Part shown: in pieces, positions 4,363 to 60,157 of the stretch | Layout: the number at the start of each line of letters is the position of its first letter | Numbering within the stretch: the first letter of the stretch is position 1 | Assembly: GCF_000092205.1 (NCBI RefSeq) | Contig: NC_014216.1 | Location: forward strand, 1,369,742 to 1,433,741 | DNA: 64,000 nt | Reading direction: 5' to 3' | Source of the DNA: Desulfurivibrio alkaliphilus AHT 2 | GTDB lineage: Bacteria > Desulfobacterota > Desulfobulbia > Desulfobulbales > Desulfurivibrionaceae | Made by a program: the position numbers and the translations under genes | The notes under the pieces: generated by a model | Told to the model about the DNA's origin: nothing | Database searches by the model: none | The model's input: the letters and a program-made list of their open reading frames with translations, nothing else

Positions 4363-4471
4363 GTAAGCGGTCACGGGGTGCCCCAGATTGCGGCAAGCAG
4401 ACCGGCGCCGCGTACCTCAGTACGTAAGCCGGGCTGATCGCCGCAAGATGGGGTGCCCCGTGGCCGCTTAC
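4363..4471 (+). repeat. GTAA-hairpin element, type A, between rng and the radical-SAM gene
   Basis: A 109-bp imperfect palindrome from GTAAGCGGTCACGG to its complement. The arms contain the type-A blocks cacggggtgcccc, ttgcgg and accggc, with the conserved internal loop caag opposite atcg. The lead module is reduced to GTAACGC just before it (4356-4362). No convincing 8-bp duplication is seen. The right end supplies the TAA stop codon (4468-4470) of the radical-SAM gene on the minus strand. Confidence 0.85.
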
Positions 4472-7964: not shown

Positions 7965-8118
7965 GTAACTGTTCACGGGATACCCCCTGCGTGACGATCT
8001 TCCAAGGAGTAAGCGGTCACGGGGCACCCCAGATTGCGGCAAGCAGACCGGCGCAGCGTACACCGGGTACTCAAGCCGGGCTGATCGCCGCAAGGTGGGG
8101 TGCCCCGTGATCGCTTAC
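7965..8118 (+). mobile_element. GTAA-hairpin MITE, type A, with exact 8-bp target duplication
   Basis: Full copy of 154 bp: lead module starting GTAACTGTTCACGGG (7965) and hairpin 8009-8118 (GTAAGCGG...CGCTTAC). It is flanked by the exact 8-bp direct repeat GCCATCAT at 7957-7964 and 8119-8126. The repeat holds the lipoprotein start codon on one side and the TPR-gene stop codon on the other. Removing the element and one repeat restores an ATGA overlap between the two genes. The lead module is shared with the copy at 47833-48002 (ataccccctgcg, gacgatcttccaa). Confidence 0.9.
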
Positions 8119-9925: not shown

Positions 9926-10097
9926 GTAATCGTTCAGCCGCACCGCATCTTCGGGCGATCAGCCAGGCTTACGGAGGGGACAGTTTTAAAAACTGTCCCC
10001 GATTACGCTGCACCTGGCTGCTTGCCCGAACCTGCGGCACTGCTGAACGATTACAGCCCGTTATACCTGCAGGTTAGTACCCCCGGTAAACGGTTAC
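9926..10097 (-). mobile_element. GTAA-hairpin MITE, type B, with nested palindrome and 7/8-bp target duplication
   Basis: Inverted orientation relative to the copy at 17593. Hairpin 9926-10054 with type-B arms (cgttcag, ttcggg, gccagg blocks), followed by the lead module to GGTTAC at 10097. Flanking direct repeats are CATCGTTG (9918-9925) and CATTGTTG (10098-10105). The tip is replaced by a palindrome with GGGGACAGTTTT arms (9976-10000). Its end supplies the tmk stop codon; without the element tmk would stop one codon earlier. Confidence 0.88.
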
Positions 10098-17543: not shown

Positions 17544-17582
17544 GTAAATGTTCTGCAGTTATTGGCCCTGGTGAACGCTTAC
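17544..17582 (-). repeat. Internally deleted 39-bp derivative of the GTAA element
   Basis: Starts GTAAATGTTCTGCA and ends TGGTGAACGCTTAC, so both ends match the termini of the full element (GTAA-GTTCA type) while the hairpin is missing. It lies 10 bp left of the full copy at 17593-17743, in opposite orientation. No 8-bp duplication was found around it. Confidence 0.55.
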
Positions 17583-17592
17583 TGTTATCAAG

Positions 17593-17743
17593 GTAACCGT
17601 TCACCAAGGGTATTAACTTACCGGTCTAACGGGCCGTAATCGTTCAGCAGTGCCGCAGATTCGGGTAAGCAGCCAGGCGCCGCGTACACCGGGTACTCAA
17701 GCCTGGCTGATCGCCCGAAGGTGCGGTGCTGCTGAACGATTAC
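17593..17743 (+). mobile_element. GTAA-hairpin MITE, type B, with exact 8-bp target duplication
   Basis: Best reference copy, 151 bp. Lead module GTAACCGTTCACCAAGGG... (17593-17635) and hairpin 17636-17743 (GTAATCGTTCAGCAG...CTGCTGAACGATTAC). It is flanked by exact TTATCAAG at 17585-17592 and 17744-17751. The hairpin arms pair over about 45 bp, with a conserved internal loop (taag opposite atcg). It sits in the divergent region between ffh and the secreted protein gene. Confidence 0.92.
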
Positions 17744-29966: not shown

Positions 29967-30075
29967 GGAAAACGTTCAGCAGTGCCGCAGCTTGCGGCAA
30001 GCGGACCGGCGCCGCGTACATCAGTACGCAAGCCGGGCCGATCGCCGCAAGATGCGGTGCTGCTGAACGTTTTCC
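29967..30075 (+). repeat. GTAA-hairpin element, hybrid arms, hairpin only
   Basis: Imperfect palindrome from GGAAAACGTTCAGCAG to its complement CTGCTGAACGTTTTCC. Outer stem is type B (gttcagcag) and inner stem is type A (ttgcgg, accggc). The usual GTAA/TTAC ends have changed to GAAA/TTTC on both sides, keeping the pairing. No lead module or target duplication is visible. The last base overlaps the TAG stop of the MotE-like gene. Confidence 0.82.
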
Positions 30076-37407: not shown

Positions 37408-38928
37408 TTAAAGAGAGCCTTGGTTGCGATACTCATTGAGTTTGTTGCGCAGGGTGCGCACACTGATTCCCAGCATTTTCGCGGCATGGGTACGATTGTC
37501 ATCGGTCTGCCGCAGGGCCTGCAGAATCATCTGCCGCTCCACCTCACGCAGACTGCGCCCGGCCAGGGCGCTATCAAGGGTCGCGGCCGAATCGGGCGAG
37601 CCGGAGGCCTCTGCTGCAACCGCCTCGGTGGCAACCGTGGGCGGTGAGGCCTCCGGCTCGGCAGCATCGACGGGCTCGGCGTCGGCCGGCCCCGAAGGTT
37701 CCGGAAGCTCCGCTGACGCTGCCGGTTCCGGGGGCAGTTCATCATCCCAGAAGTCCCAGAGTTCCAGCTCATCACCATTGCTGAGCAGCACCCCCCGCTC
37801 CAGCAGATTTTCCATCTCCCGCACATTACCCGGCCAGTCGTAGTCAAGAAAACGCTGCCGGGCGGCGGCGGAGAGCTTTTTCAAGGGCTTGTTGTAGCGC
37901 CGGCTGTGTTTTTCAATAAAGAAATCCGCCAGCAGAAAGATATCATCGGGGCGCTCCCGCAGGGAGGGCAGGCGAATGGGGATAACATTGAGGCGGTAAT
38001 AGAGATCCTGGCGAAAGGTGCCATCTTTCACCGCTTCGGCCAAGTCACGGTTGGTGGTGGCCACCACATGCACGTCCACCTTGACCGGCTCCTTGCCGCC
38101 CAGCCGATCCACCTCCTCTTCCTGCAGCACCCGCAACAGCTTGGCCTGCAGATGCAGGGGCACTTCCCCGATTTCATCCAGCAGCAGGGTGCCGCCGTGG
38201 GCCAGTTCAAACTTGCCTTTTTTGGCCATCACCGCCCCGGTAAAGGCCCCCTTTTCATGCCCGAACAATTCGCTTTCCAGCAAGCCCTCCGGCAGGGCGG
38301 CACAGTTCAGGGCGACGAAAGGACCGGCCTTGCGATCGGAAACATGATGGATAAAGCGGGCAAAGACCTCTTTGCCGGTGCCTGATTCCCCCAGCACCAG
38401 GACCGTGGCCTTACTGGAAGCCACCGTCCGGGCCCGTTCCAGCAGCCGCAGAAAGTGGCGGTCGCGGCCGATCACCGTGCGGGACCCTTCATCGGTCCGA
38501 CCCGGCGGCGGCGAGCCGGTTTCGGCGGCCGGAGCAACGGCAGCCGGGCGCGGCTGCTGGCGCATAACCTTTTTGATGGTCTCTTCGATCACCTCAACCG
38601 GGAAAGGCTTGAGAATGTAATCCACCGCCCCCTGCTTCATGGCCTCCACCGCCGTCTCCACGGTGGCATACCCGGTGATGATCACCACCGGCAGGCCGGG
38701 CCGGACGGCCTGGATTTGCTGCAGCATGGCAATACCATCCATCTCCGGCATCCGGATATCGGTGACCACCAGGTCGGGGGCTTCGCTTTCCACCATCTCC
38801 AGGGCCATGCGCCCGTTTTCCGCCACCTTGACCTCGTAACCGCCACGGCTCAAGGCCTCGTAGAGGGCAACACGCATATTCTGTTCGTCGTCAACAACCA
38901 GTATTTTTCGGCCCATCGCGCCCATCAT
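37408..38928 (-). CDS. NtrC-type sigma-54 response regulator (FlrC/FleR-like)
   Basis: The 506 residues consist of a receiver domain (KILVVDDEQN, phospho-acceptor Asp in VVTDIRMPEMDG, LKPF), an AAA+ domain with GESGTGKE, the sigma-54 contact loop GAFTGA and the R-finger region, a Pro/Ala/Glu-rich linker of about 80 residues, and a Fis-type helix-turn-helix (NRTHAAKMLGISVRTLRNKLNEY). Context next to flgB and a sigma-54 promoter points to a class of flagellar regulator like FlrC or FleR. The linker before the DNA-binding domain is unusually long. ATG 38928 follows AGGA. Confidence 0.9.
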   Translation of the reverse strand: MMGAMGRKILVVDDEQNMRVALYEALSRGGYEVKVAENGRMALEMVESEAPDLVVTDIRMPEMDGIAMLQQIQAVRPGLPVVIITGYATVETAVEAMKQGAVDYILKPFPVEVIEETIKKVMRQQPRPAAVAPAAETGSPPPGRTDEGSRTVIGRDRHFLRLLERARTVASSKATVLVLGESGTGKEVFARFIHHVSDRKAGPFVALNCAALPEGLLESELFGHEKGAFTGAVMAKKGKFELAHGGTLLLDEIGEVPLHLQAKLLRVLQEEEVDRLGGKEPVKVDVHVVATTNRDLAEAVKDGTFRQDLYYRLNVIPIRLPSLRERPDDIFLLADFFIEKHSRRYNKPLKKLSAAARQRFLDYDWPGNVREMENLLERGVLLSNGDELELWDFWDDELPPEPAASAELPEPSGPADAEPVDAAEPEASPPTVATEAVAAEASGSPDSAATLDSALAGRSLREVERQMILQALRQTDDNRTHAAKMLGISVRTLRNKLNEYRNQGSL

Positions 38929-42135: not shown

Positions 42136-43201
42136 CTTCCGGGCCGTTGAGGCGATAGCGTTTCATCTTCTCCAGCAGGGTGGTACGGTTAACGTTGAGC
42201 AGCTTGGCTGCCCGATTTTTGACCCAGCCGGTCTGTTCCATGGCCTGGACAATCAGTCTTTTTTCAAACTCGGCCACCACCTCGCTCAAGACAAAGCCGG
42301 CCGGAGGGATCGGCCCCGCCGCGACCGTAGGCAAATCAGCTTGCGCCGCGGGGCCGGGGCTTTCCTGCCCCGCCGGCGCCGCACCCATCCCGGCCAGCAG
42401 GCGTTCGGGGATATCCTCCCGCCCCAACTCACGCCCGGCGGCCAGAATCACCATCCGCTCCACGGTGTTTTCCAGCTCCCGGACATTACCCGGCCAAGGG
42501 TAACGCTGCAGGCAATCCAGGGCCTCGGGCTTGATGCCCCGGATCTTCTTCCTGCGGTTGACATTGAAACGGGCGATGAAATGCTCCACCAGTAAAGGGA
42601 TGTCCGAGATCCGCTCCCGCAGGGGCGGAGCATCGACGGGAATGACATTGAGGCGGTAATAGAGGTCCTCCCTGAACCGCCCCTCTTTGACCTCGTGCTC
42701 CAGGTCCCGGTTGGTGGCCGCCACCACCCGAAAATCCGAACTGATGGTGCGGGTCCCCCCCACCCGTTCAAACTTTTTCTCCTGCAAAACCCGCAGCAGC
42801 TTCACCTGCAACATGGGGCTCATCTCGGCAATTTCATCCAGGAAGACCGTGCCGCCGTGGGCCAACTCAAAGCGGCCGGGGCGAGAACGCACCGCGTGGG
42901 TAAAGGCCCCCCGCTCGTGGCCGAAGAGTTCGCTTTCCAACAACTCCGCCGGGATGGCCCCGCAGTTGACGGCGATAAAGGGCCCCCGGCCGCGCCCCCC
43001 TTCCTGGTGCAAAGCCTGGGCCACCAGCTCTTTGCCGGTACCCGACTCGCCCCTGACCAGGACGGTGGTGTCGGCGTCGGCAACTTTGCGGATCAACACA
43101 AAAACCTGTCGGATCCGTTCACTGGTGCCGACGATGGCCGCGCAACCCTGCGCTTCTTCCCGCTCCCGGCACTGATTTCCGTCAGCTTGTTTTAACGCCA
43201 T
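42128..43201 (-). CDS. Sigma-54-dependent activator without receiver domain
   Basis: The 357 residues start directly with an AAA+ domain (VGTSERIRQVFVLIRKV, Walker A GESGTGKE, Walker B GGTVFLDEIAEM) and end with a Fis-type HTH (VKNRAAKLLNVNRTTLLEKMKRYRL). The sigma-54 contact loop reads GAFTHA rather than GAFTGA (His102, codon 42896-42898). No receiver domain, as in FleQ/FlrA-type masters that respond to other signals. It heads the regulatory block; ATG 43201 follows GGAGGG. It could be the master regulator of the flagellar genes or of another sigma-54 regulon. Confidence 0.87.
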   Translation of the reverse strand: MALKQADGNQCREREEAQGCAAIVGTSERIRQVFVLIRKVADADTTVLVRGESGTGKELVAQALHQEGGRGRGPFIAVNCGAIPAELLESELFGHERGAFTHAVRSRPGRFELAHGGTVFLDEIAEMSPMLQVKLLRVLQEKKFERVGGTRTISSDFRVVAATNRDLEHEVKEGRFREDLYYRLNVIPVDAPPLRERISDIPLLVEHFIARFNVNRRKKIRGIKPEALDCLQRYPWPGNVRELENTVERMVILAAGRELGREDIPERLLAGMGAAPAGQESPGPAAQADLPTVAAGPIPPAGFVLSEVVAEFEKRLIVQAMEQTGWVKNRAAKLLNVNRTTLLEKMKRYRLNGPEDV

Positions 43202-47832: not shown

Positions 47833-48002
47833 GTAACTGAGAATACCCCCTGCGAGACGATCTTCCAAAGAGTAAGCGGCCACGGGGCACCCCAGATTGC
47901 GGCAAGCAGACCGGCGCAGCGTAATCGGGGACAGTTTTCAAAACTGTCCCCTCCTCAAGCCGGGCTGATCGCCGCAAGGTGGGGTGCCCCGTGATCGCTT
48001 AC
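47833..48002 (+). mobile_element. GTAA-hairpin MITE, type A, with nested palindrome, cutting the end of the fumarase gene
   Basis: Lead module from GTAACTGAGAATACC (47833) and hairpin 47872-48002. Direct repeats GCGACGGT (47825-47832) and GCGGCGGT (48003-48010) flank it. The tip carries a 24-bp GGGGACAGTTTT-type palindrome at 47927-47950. It lies inside the 3' end of the fumarase beta gene and replaces its original last codons. Confidence 0.88.
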
Positions 48003-48566
48003 GCGGCGGTAGAAATCGTTGCCGGCCAGGTCGTTGATCACCACCGCCGGAAAGTTTTCCACCTCGAAACGGAACATGGCTTCGGCTCCGGCATCGGCAA
48101 AAGCCACCAGTTCGCTTTTGCGGATGCAGCGGGAGAGCAGGGCACCGGCCCCGCCGATGGTGGCCAGATAAATGGCCCCATGGGCCAGCATGGCTTGGCG
48201 CACCTCCTCCGAGCGAGGGCCTTTCCCCATGGTGGCCGTCAGCCCCAACTCCAGTAACCGGGGAGTATAGGCGTCCATCCGATAACTGGTGGTGGGGCCG
48301 GCGGCTCCGATTACCCGGCCCGGCAGAGCCGGCGTCGGGCCCACGTAGTACAGCAGTTGCCCCCGCAGGTCCACCGGCAAAGGGCGCCCTTCATCAAGCA
48401 GCGCGCAGAGGCGCCGGTGGGTTTGATCCCGCCCGGTGTAGAGCACACCACTCAAACTTACCAGTTCCCCGGCCTTAAGTTCGGCCACCACGGCAGGATT
48501 AAACGGCACCTCCACCCGGCGCAACTGTTGCAAAAACTGGGAAACAGGGGATATCTTCGGCATCAT
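47955..48566 (-). CDS. Fumarate hydratase class I, beta (C-terminal) subunit
   Basis: Second subunit of the oxygen-sensitive iron-sulfur fumarase (interconverts fumarate and malate). The 203 residues include GELVSLSGVLYTGRDQTHRRL, GPTPALPGRVIGAAGPTTSYRMD and KGPRSEEV, the catalytic swivel-domain pattern. ATG 48566 follows GAGG. The last 15 residues (VSDHGAPHLAAISPA) come from an inserted repeat element; without it the protein would end ...FYRRN. Partner alpha gene is directly upstream, separated by another copy of the element. Confidence 0.9.
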   Translation of the reverse strand: MMPKISPVSQFLQQLRRVEVPFNPAVVAELKAGELVSLSGVLYTGRDQTHRRLCALLDEGRPLPVDLRGQLLYYVGPTPALPGRVIGAAGPTTSYRMDAYTPRLLELGLTATMGKGPRSEEVRQAMLAHGAIYLATIGGAGALLSRCIRKSELVAFADAGAEAMFRFEVENFPAVVINDLAGNDFYRRVSDHGAPHLAAISPA

Positions 48567-48592
48567 CAAACCTCGCAGCAACCAAATTACAG

Positions 48593-48743
48593 GTAAGCGT
48601 TCACCAAGGGCACTAACCTACCGGTTTAACGGGCTGTAACCGAACAGCCGTGCCGCAGGTTCGGGTAAGCAACCAGGCGCGGCGTACCCCCTGTACGTAA
48701 GCCTGGCTGATCGCCCGAAAATGCGGTGCGGCTGTTCGATTAC
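48593..48743 (+). mobile_element. GTAA-hairpin MITE, type B, with exact 8-bp target duplication
   Basis: Lead module GTAAGCGTTCACCAAGGG (48593) and hairpin 48636-48743. Flanked by exact AATTACAG at 48585-48592 and 48744-48751. The repeat on the right contains the stop codon of the fumarase alpha gene. It separates the two fumarase genes, originally about 20 bp apart. Confidence 0.92.
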
Positions 48744-53757: not shown

Positions 53758-53909
53758 TTAACCGCTCACCAAGAGCAAATGACTTAACCAGACAACGGGC
53801 TGTAAACGTTCAGCGGTGCCGCAGGTTGCGGCAAGCGAACCGGCGCCGCGTACCTCAGGTACGCAAGCCGGGTCGATCGCCGCAAGATGCGGTGCTGCTG
53901 GACGTTTAC
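53758..53909 (+). mobile_element. GTAA-hairpin MITE at the ruvA/ruvB junction with 7/8-bp target duplication
   Basis: Starts TTAACCGCTCACCAAG (53758, first base changed from G) and has a hybrid hairpin 53802-53909: outer type B (cgttcagcgg) and inner type A (ttgcgg, accggc). Flanked by GATTCATA (53750-53757) and GATTCATG (53910-53917). On the minus strand both copies read ATGAATC: one is the ruvA stop (TGA), the other the ruvB start (ATG). The element therefore cut an ATGA overlap without damaging either gene. Confidence 0.9.
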
Positions 53910-56601: not shown

Positions 56602-56752
56602 GTAAGCGAACAGCCGCACCGCATCTTCGGGCGATCAGCCAGGCTTACGTACAGAGGGTACGCTGCGCCTGGCTGCTTGCCCGAACCTGCGGCACGGCTG
56701 TTCGCTTACGGCCCGTGAGACCGGCAGCTTAGGACCCCTGGTGAACGGTTGT
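56602..56752 (-). mobile_element. GTAA-hairpin MITE, type B, overlapping the end of rsmI
   Basis: Hairpin 56602-56709 (GTAAGCGAACAGCCG...CGGCTGTTCGCTTAC) followed by the lead module to about 56752 (GGTGAACGGTTGT). No duplication remains, so it is probably an older insertion. Outer stem sequence differs from other type-B copies on both arms in matching ways. The lead module is read as the last seven codons and stop of rsmI. Confidence 0.85.
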
Positions 56753-58808: not shown

Positions 58809-60008
58809 GTGTCGACCCCCCCGAACACCACCCCCGAGAGCCACCTGCACCAGGACGTGCACCTGGTCAGCCTGGCCGGCCGGCAGATTTTTCTGATCGG
58901 CACCGCCCATGTCTCTCAAGAATCCGCCGACCTGGTTCACCAGGTCATAGACGAGTTGCGCCCTGATGCGGTCTGCCTGGAACTGGACGAAAAGCGCTAT
59001 CAATCTTTGGCCCACCGCAAAAAATGGGAACTGCTGGACCTCAAGGAAATTATGCGGCGCCGCCAGTTGGCCACCCTGTTGATCAACCTGCTGCTGGCCT
59101 CTTACCAGAAGAAGCTGGGCGACAAGCTGGGGGTGCAGCCGGGCAGCGAGTTGCTAAACGCCGCCCGCCAGGCGGAAGAGCTTAATATCCCCGTAGCGCT
59201 TTGCGACCGGGACGTCCGGATCACCATGCGCCGGGCCTGGCGGGCCACTCCCTGGTATCGCAAGATGATGCTGCTGGCCACCCTGCTGGCCGGCATGTTC
59301 GACCGCAGCGAAATCAGCGAGGCCGATCTGCGGGAGTTGCGCAACACCGACCTGCTCTCCGAGCTGATGGCCCAGCTGGGCCGGGAGCTGCCGGAGCTCA
59401 AAGAGGTGCTCATCGACGAGCGCGACACCTATCTGGCGGAAAAAATCAAGGCCACCAGCGGAGACAAGCTGGTGGCGGTGGTCGGGGCCGGCCATGTGGC
59501 CGGCTTGAAAAAAGCCCTCGCCCAGGACCGGCAGGAGCAAATGGCGACCATCAGCCGGATTCCGCCGGCCGCCAAAACCTGGAAAGCCCTGGCCTGGGCG
59601 GTACCGGCAATAATCTTGAGTGCACTGGCCTATATTGCCATCAGCAAGGGTATGGCCGTGGCCGGCCAGAATCTGATTTACTGGATTTTAGCCAACGGCA
59701 TTCCCGCCGCCATCGGCGCGGCTTTGGCTCTGGCCCATCCCCTGACCATTGCCGGGGCCTTTGTCGCCGCGCCGGTAACCAGCCTGACCCCGGTGATCGG
59801 GGCCGGTTACGTCACCGCCTTTCTCCAGGCCAATTTTCGCCCCCCCCTGGTGGTGGAATTTGAGCGCGTCCTGGATGACATGAACAGCCTGGGGGGCTGG
59901 TGGCGCAATCGCCTGCTGCGTATTTTTCTGGCCTTCATCCTGCCGGCCATCGGCAGCATGATCGGCACATGGGTCGGCGGCTACGAGATCCTTTCCAACG
60001 TTTTTTAG
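58809..60008 (+). CDS. TraB/PrgY family membrane protein
   Basis: The 399 residues contain the TraB-family motifs LIGTAHVSQESADLV, AVCLELDEKRY and VVGAGHVAGLKKAL, which place it in the TraB/GumN (Tiki-like) fold, possibly a metallopeptidase. Several membrane helices follow (KALAWAVPAIILSALAYIAI, LIYWILANGIPAAIGAALALA, LTIAGAFVAAPVTSLTPVIGAGYVTAF, IFLAFILPAIGSMIGTWVGG). GTG 58809 follows AGGA. Substrate unknown; founding members turn down pheromone signals. The G of its TAG stop belongs to the inserted repeat. Confidence 0.85.
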   Translation: MSTPPNTTPESHLHQDVHLVSLAGRQIFLIGTAHVSQESADLVHQVIDELRPDAVCLELDEKRYQSLAHRKKWELLDLKEIMRRRQLATLLINLLLASYQKKLGDKLGVQPGSELLNAARQAEELNIPVALCDRDVRITMRRAWRATPWYRKMMLLATLLAGMFDRSEISEADLRELRNTDLLSELMAQLGRELPELKEVLIDERDTYLAEKIKATSGDKLVAVVGAGHVAGLKKALAQDRQEQMATISRIPPAAKTWKALAWAVPAIILSALAYIAISKGMAVAGQNLIYWILANGIPAAIGAALALAHPLTIAGAFVAAPVTSLTPVIGAGYVTAFLQANFRPPLVVEFERVLDDMNSLGGWWRNRLLRIFLAFILPAIGSMIGTWVGGYEILSNVF

Positions 60009-60157
60009 TAAACGTTCAGCCGCACCGCATCTTCGGGCGATCAGCCAGGCTTACGTACAGGGGTACGCGGCGCCTGGCTGCTTGCCCGAACCTGCGGCAC
60101 GGCTGAACGTTTACGGCTCGTTAAACCGCCAGGTTAGTACCCTTGGTGAAAGCTTAT
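60008..60157 (-). mobile_element. GTAA-hairpin MITE, type B, after the TraB-family gene
   Basis: Hairpin 60008-60114 (GTAAACGTTCAGCCG...) followed by the lead module to about 60157 (ctttcaccaaggg read on the minus strand). Flanking sequences GTTTTTTA (60000-60007) and TTTTTTTA (60157-60164) look like a duplicated T-rich target, but the T run makes the exact boundary uncertain by one base. Confidence 0.82.

Follow-up and report, generated by a model that had tools for sequence, protein, structure and literature searches.

Palindromes at the tips of a hairpin family

The window, that is the whole stretch of 64,000 nucleotides analysed from the genome of Desulfurivibrio alkaliphilus AHT 2 (contig NC_014216.1, positions 1,369,742 to 1,433,741), contains ten hairpins of one family. 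Two of these, each about 130 nt long, carry at their tips a perfect 25-nt palindrome, GGGGACAGTTTT-N-AAAACTGTCCCC, here called PAL, and the other eight lack it (Table 1). The first copy is flanked by the genes of a TPR-repeat protein and a thymidylate kinase, and the second by those of a peptidase S41 and a fumarase C-terminus. The fumarase C-terminus ORF (47955-48581, minus strand) ends inside this second PAL hairpin: roughly its final 15 codons fall within the right arm (47955-48002), which also supplies the stop codon. The initial annotation had described a palindrome nested at the hairpin tip in two copies, one host being of type B and the other of type A. Both statements hold, as do its coordinates for the first copy; its end for the second, 47950, falls one base short.

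Table 1. Window positions of the palindrome, its junction bases and the host hairpins
Feature	Position	Strand	Sequence or remark
PAL copy 1	9976..10000	.	GGGGACAGTTTTAAAAACTGTCCCC
PAL copy 2	47927..47951	.	GGGGACAGTTTTCAAAACTGTCCCC
Junction bases GGA	9973..9975	-	TCC in cassette orientation
Junction bases GAT	10001..10003	-	ATC in cassette orientation
Host hairpin type B, PAL at tip	9926..10054	-	minus strand in cassette orientation: ..gcgtaatc-PAL-tccgtaagcc..
Host hairpin type A, PAL at tip	47872..48002	+	
PAL-less hairpin	4363..4471	+	
PAL-less hairpin	8009..8118	+	nearest empty relative of 47872-48002: left arm 98%, right arm 100%
PAL-less hairpin	17636..17743	+	
PAL-less hairpin	29967..30075	+	
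PAL-less hairpin	48636..48743	+	
PAL-less hairpin	53802..53909	+	
PAL-less hairpin, type B	56602..56709	-	
PAL-less hairpin, type B	60008..60114	-	

Allowing at most one mismatch, GGGGACAGTTTT occurs five times in the window against 0.43 expected, a count that none of 100 shuffles reached; a chance origin of PAL is excluded. In the 3,097,763-base single-contig genome the pattern GGGGACAGTTTN{0,20}AAACTGTCCCC gave 13 matches and its reversed control none, and 26 of the 28 genomic occurrences of the 11-mer GGGGACAGTTT lie within these 13 palindromes. Twelve of the palindromes belong to the hairpin family, nine by overlap with BLAST matches of a hairpin query (a search that scored 40 of 269 candidates) and three, L010, L016 and L018, by eye. 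The thirteenth (L015) is free; it lies downstream of a flagellin gene, between this gene and another ORF, and is followed by CTTTTTC. A genome of the same genus (G218) has a 26-nt version of PAL by its flagellin gene, at the place matching L015, and further free copies were found in other genomes (L174, L042, L055). A search for the palindrome alone, as the initial annotation had suggested, thus yields independent copies, and PAL is not confined to the hairpin family. A different palindrome of the same class, GGGGACGGATTTCAAATCCGTCCCC, was observed downstream of the corresponding flagellin gene in G328, a genome of the same taxonomic family (L185).

A covariance model (R1) built from the window hairpins revealed at least 150 genomic copies of the hairpin, which is about 108 nt long, and at least 149 of these are PAL-less. 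Since inserts lower the model score, only one PAL-bearing copy, the type B hairpin of the window, is among the 150 matches listed. All sampled PAL-less hairpins (60/60) have the tip form GCGTAC..GTAC, the sample being 60 of the 150 listed matches, to which the eight window copies were added. The outer stems differ between copies with pairing kept. As an imperfect hairpin of this length and copy number the host resembles MITEs and ERIC-like repeats, from which it differs in that nothing in the window matches an Rfam family and no transposase partner was found. Directly to the left of many hairpins lies another repeat (D1, D4, D14) together with sequence resembling TTAACGGGCC, e.g. at 17570-17635 and 48591-48635, and the hairpins may therefore belong to a larger composite repeat. 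The window also holds diverged coding repeats at 37784-38325 and 42444-42985, with a constant spacing of 4660 nt, that are likely paralogous genes.

In five PAL hairpins (L008, L010, L014, L016, L018), which are truncated or rearranged, one arm can be recognised. In three of them, L008, L016 and L018, PAL abuts GTAATC/GATTAC, a word that also ends many hairpins, and deletion between short direct repeats of this word could explain these copies.

Relation to GGGGWSAS terminal repeats and Y1 transposase genes

The sequence GGGGACAG is present on both arms in all 13 genomic palindromes. It fits GGGGWSAS, described as common to the terminal repeats of TIRYT genes, which form dimers (Di Nocera et al. 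2013, PMC3733652), and GGGG[AT][CG]A[CG], given for subclass 2.1 (Quentin et al. 2018, PMC6006769). The TIRs of TIRYT genes, or TIRtrons, as described in these two papers, share with PAL both this motif and the dispersed dimers, of which 13 in head-to-head arrangement occur in D. alkaliphilus and 20 in another genome, G112. TIRYT TIRs form inverted pairs around Y1 genes, whereas PAL is a perfect 25-nt dimer for which no cognate RAYT or Y1 gene was found in the D. alkaliphilus genome. The two Y1 genes of this genome are flanked by GGGGTCAAGTCTTGACATGACAG and GGGGACGGACTTAAAAACTT (sister repeats GGGGTCAAG.. and GGGGACGGA..), and their proteins combine Y1_Tnp with Bac_DnaA_C as in subclass 2.1, one of them scoring just under the Pfam cut-off. 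The expectation of the initial annotation that a RAYT gene would be flanked by the palindrome thus fails in this genome.

In other genomes, pairs of GGGGACAG enclose a Y1 domain (L142, L146, L148 and L152). The four GGGGACAG-associated Y1 proteins that were scanned (L146, L148, L152, L157) are short and match Y1_Tnp alone, and in this they differ from the Bac_DnaA_C-bearing proteins described for subclass 2.1 (PMC6006769). We surveyed 31 distinct Y1 loci, two from D. alkaliphilus and 29 from elsewhere, skipping two more at contig edges and leaving out duplicate-genome loci (L141, L151, L162, L165) and loci without a located ORF (L168, L170, L171). In this set, drawn from genomes that were mostly chosen for holding such palindromes, inward GGGG[AT]C stood within 150 nt on the left of 20 of the 31 loci (opposite orientation at one), on the right of 21 (opposite orientation at four) and on both sides of 14. 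Y1_Tnp genes are present in 11 of 12 genome handles with such palindromes, two of which (G281 and G298) apparently represent one genome. The Y1-flanking repeat types closest to PAL are GGGGACAGTTTACTT, GGGGACAGTATATA and GGGGACAGACCACG; the 12-base arm GGGGACAGTTTT itself was found at none of the Y1 loci read, here or elsewhere. In D. alkaliphilus the form found beside Y1 genes of Gammaproteobacteria, GGGGACAGTTTACTT, occurs singly among degenerate AATTACGG repeats near a GTCAAGTCTTGACATG motif (L020:1008-1022, genome position 2146807).

REPs and REPINs of GTAG-type RAYT genes, which a Y1 enzyme is presumed to move in trans, are short palindromes or dimers outside genes. PAL is likewise a short extragenic palindrome or dimer. 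REPs and REPINs have a GT[AG]G guide, hundreds of copies and a cognate RAYT, whereas PAL has 13 copies, no cognate RAYT was found, and the guide is absent 5' of the hairpin foot in all 13, the foot being AATC, AATCC or locus-specific. PAL is closer to the TIRYT class than to classical REPs. The comparison that the initial annotation drew with REP elements of RAYT genes is right in kind, as GGGGACAG fits GGGGWSAS and flanks RAYT-type genes elsewhere, and fails for a local RAYT partner. We infer that PAL has been mobilised by a Y1 transposase; here it is either an orphan or served in trans.

The pattern was found in four of 297 genomes of the phylum, this one included, and a scan of genome contigs gave at least 110 stretches containing it (loci L023-L132). 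Copies from Saccharopolyspora (nine in G329, three in G330) are probably of another class, their GTTTTCATGAAAAC core being common to a separate local palindrome family. This family, GAAGTTTTCATGAAAACTTC, includes GGGGACAG-capped variants, GGGGACAGTTTTCATGAAAACTGTCCCC (L203-L214).

Junctions, arms and the probable exchange of tips

Both window sites read gcgtaatc-PAL-tcc in a single orientation, so that the initial annotation was correct in giving them the same junction bases. ATC-PAL-TC stands in place of the 9-nt apex, CACCGGGTA or CCCTCTGTA, of the nearest PAL-less tips. Read in the common orientation, exact AATC-PAL-TC is found in nine of the 12 hairpin copies, and L011a is a near-match (AATCC-PAL-TCT). 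The junctions of L009 and L010 differ, PAL lying beside the tip in L009. Neither a target-site duplication nor a clean pre-insertion site is visible at the 13 PAL sites. Insertion by Y1 enzymes requires no such duplication.

In their arms the PAL hairpins have different PAL-less copies as closest relatives and are at most 86% alike among themselves. Exemplified by L013, whose arms are 98–100% like those of the empty hairpin at 8009, and by L012, 98% like L215, L216 and L237, this similarity to separate empty relatives is accompanied by rejection of a single clade of PAL hairpins (AU p=0.00025, five changes on the tree). The tree comprised 68 PAL-less copies and six PAL copies with both arms, from a short alignment with few resolved forks, L009 being excluded as the layout of its arms could not be established. 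The PAL hairpins are thus polyphyletic in their arms. Furthermore, L011b is an arm chimera with a left arm of type B and a right arm of type A. One cassette in arms of different types together with an arm chimera is what transfer of the tip cassette predicts, and these observations argue that the cassette crossed between subfamilies. They bear out the proposal of the initial annotation that the nested piece had passed between hairpin subtypes.

We consider it probable that PAL is a transposon-end dimer that landed at a hairpin tip, and that the resulting cassette spread between subfamilies by recombination or conversion. According to this model PAL would be a minimal head-to-head pair of GGGGWSAS (TIRYT/RAYT) terminal repeats, a non-autonomous end of a single-strand transposon whose own transposase is missing here. 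It would have landed at least once at the tip of the hairpin repeat, where about 9 nt of the apex were replaced, the apex being the only position at which both arms can still pair around an insert. Recombination or gene conversion between hairpin copies would then have carried the ATC-PAL-TC cassette into further subfamilies. Either the tips were exchanged in this way or the same insertion recurred, and repeated insertion in one orientation at one hot spot would also break up the clade. A symmetric element gives no reason for a constant orientation and an asymmetric junction in independent insertions, which favours recombination of the tips over repeated identical insertion.

A comparable arrangement was found in G112, where an unrelated repeat of about 250 nt gave 44 matches. 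The 30 copies that were read comprise 14 with PAL, 13 without and three partial ones. PAL occupies the apex of an inner hairpin whose left inner arm is missing; the PAL-less copies have a small hairpin, CCGCCGAACGAATCACA-CGA-TGTGATTCGCGGCGG, instead. A single clade of PAL copies was again rejected (p=0.0005). The contrast can be read either way, as gain of PAL or as derivation of the PAL-less hairpin.

Flank symmetry and alternative origins

A further property of these palindromes is the symmetry of their surroundings. At least five self-complementary bases lie directly outside 45 of 115 GGGGACAGTTT..AAACTGTCCCC palindromes from 45 assemblies, a set that includes five Saccharopolyspora rows probably of another class. 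In the 23 multi-copy assemblies such flanks were found in 39 of 93 cases against 125 of 892 mismatched flank pairings within the assembly, so that the symmetry is partly inherent to the element and partly locus-specific. By comparison, self-complementary outer flanks of at least five bases occur in none of the 18 Y1 units whose ends match (p=0.0004). The presence of locus-specific symmetry in many palindromes and its absence from the Y1 units suggests fold-back copying. PAL would enter as a single-strand hairpin and use its 3' end to prime copying of the neighbouring flank, leaving flanks that are self-complementary and arms that are later homogenised by template switching. Template switching at quasipalindromes has been described in E. 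coli (PMC7202029).

Two loci have flank palindromes that are half host and half new. In L009 the host contributes the flank TTGCGTAC, and the inverse of this flank, ACGCAA, is absent there from PAL-less hairpins; in L184 of G218, compared with the PAL-less L201, CTTCG was already present and CGAAG is new. In addition, four G112 copies differ at both bases of the outermost pair, with compensatory TGGGACAG..CTGTCCCA. Against this, the junctions of the common cassette AATC-PAL-TC are non-complementary, and in some assemblies a common flank (AATTAA) plainly belongs to the element. Moreover, L201 is a paralogue and not an orthologous empty site, and relatives of G305 and G300, searched for empty sites, yielded no intergenic site that could be aligned. 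We put fold-back copying forward tentatively, as a process that would act beside the transposition and tip exchange favoured above. Insertion into the centre of a pre-existing palindrome was also considered; it is weakened by the Y1 units, none of which has such flanks, and by L009 and L184, where only half of the palindrome existed beforehand in the PAL-less counterparts.

A more inclusive proposal, which we regard as somewhat less probable still, is that the hairpin repeats serve as interchangeable cassettes. PAL, entering as a single-strand hairpin, would settle at the apex of another hairpin repeat and re-copy its flank by fold-back, which preserves the hairpin structure. Gene conversion would then swap the apex between copies without regard to the arms. 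Two unrelated host repeats, in two genomes, would have undergone this process separately.

Repeated insertion targeted to the tips is unlikely. Here a transposase acting on single-stranded hairpins would place a fresh PAL at each exposed apex, at the same bases. Tip-nested PAL in two unrelated host repeats of two genomes is consistent with such targeting, L009 with its other junctions suggests a second event, and REP dimers inside palindromes have been reported for GTAG-15 of A. variabilis, GTAG-23 of T. roseum and CGTC-1 of H. neapolitanus (PMC3733652). However, the asymmetric junction shared, exactly or nearly, by 10 of the 12 hairpin copies in one orientation makes independent insertions of a symmetric element unlikely, and the Y1 gene units with the same end class show no palindromic target (0/18). 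A role for PAL as a regulatory operator or terminator, in place of a mobile end, is very improbable. The window copies are intergenic and the free copy follows a flagellin gene, as in G218, but a dispersed repeat contains 12 of the 13 copies. After neither window hairpin is there a T-run, which together with a G+C-rich stem characterises intrinsic terminators, and PAL, with its transposon-end arms, is found in unrelated lineages.

The nested dimers of GTAG-15, GTAG-23 and CGTC-1 resemble PAL in being palindromic dimers within palindromes and differ in belonging to another repeat class. The literature already contains REP dimers inside palindromes, so that a GGGGWSAS-type dimer in hairpin tips, with evidence of tip exchange, is a variant of this arrangement, and no account of PAL-type nesting in hairpin tips was found in the openly licensed PMC literature. 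The present system adds at least 149 coexisting PAL-less hosts and the exchange of tips, on which the section of PMC3733652 devoted to nested dimers is silent.

So far, little is understood of the means by which REP-like palindromes spread. The hairpin family of D. alkaliphilus offers natural before-and-after pairs, with at least 149 PAL-less hairpins beside 12 that carry PAL, and the unrelated repeat of G112 provides a second set of 13 against 14 copies. Such pairs make landing sites, and whether symmetry existed before or arose after insertion, directly testable. The exchange of tips among hairpin copies appears to be one way in which small genomic repeats become nested.
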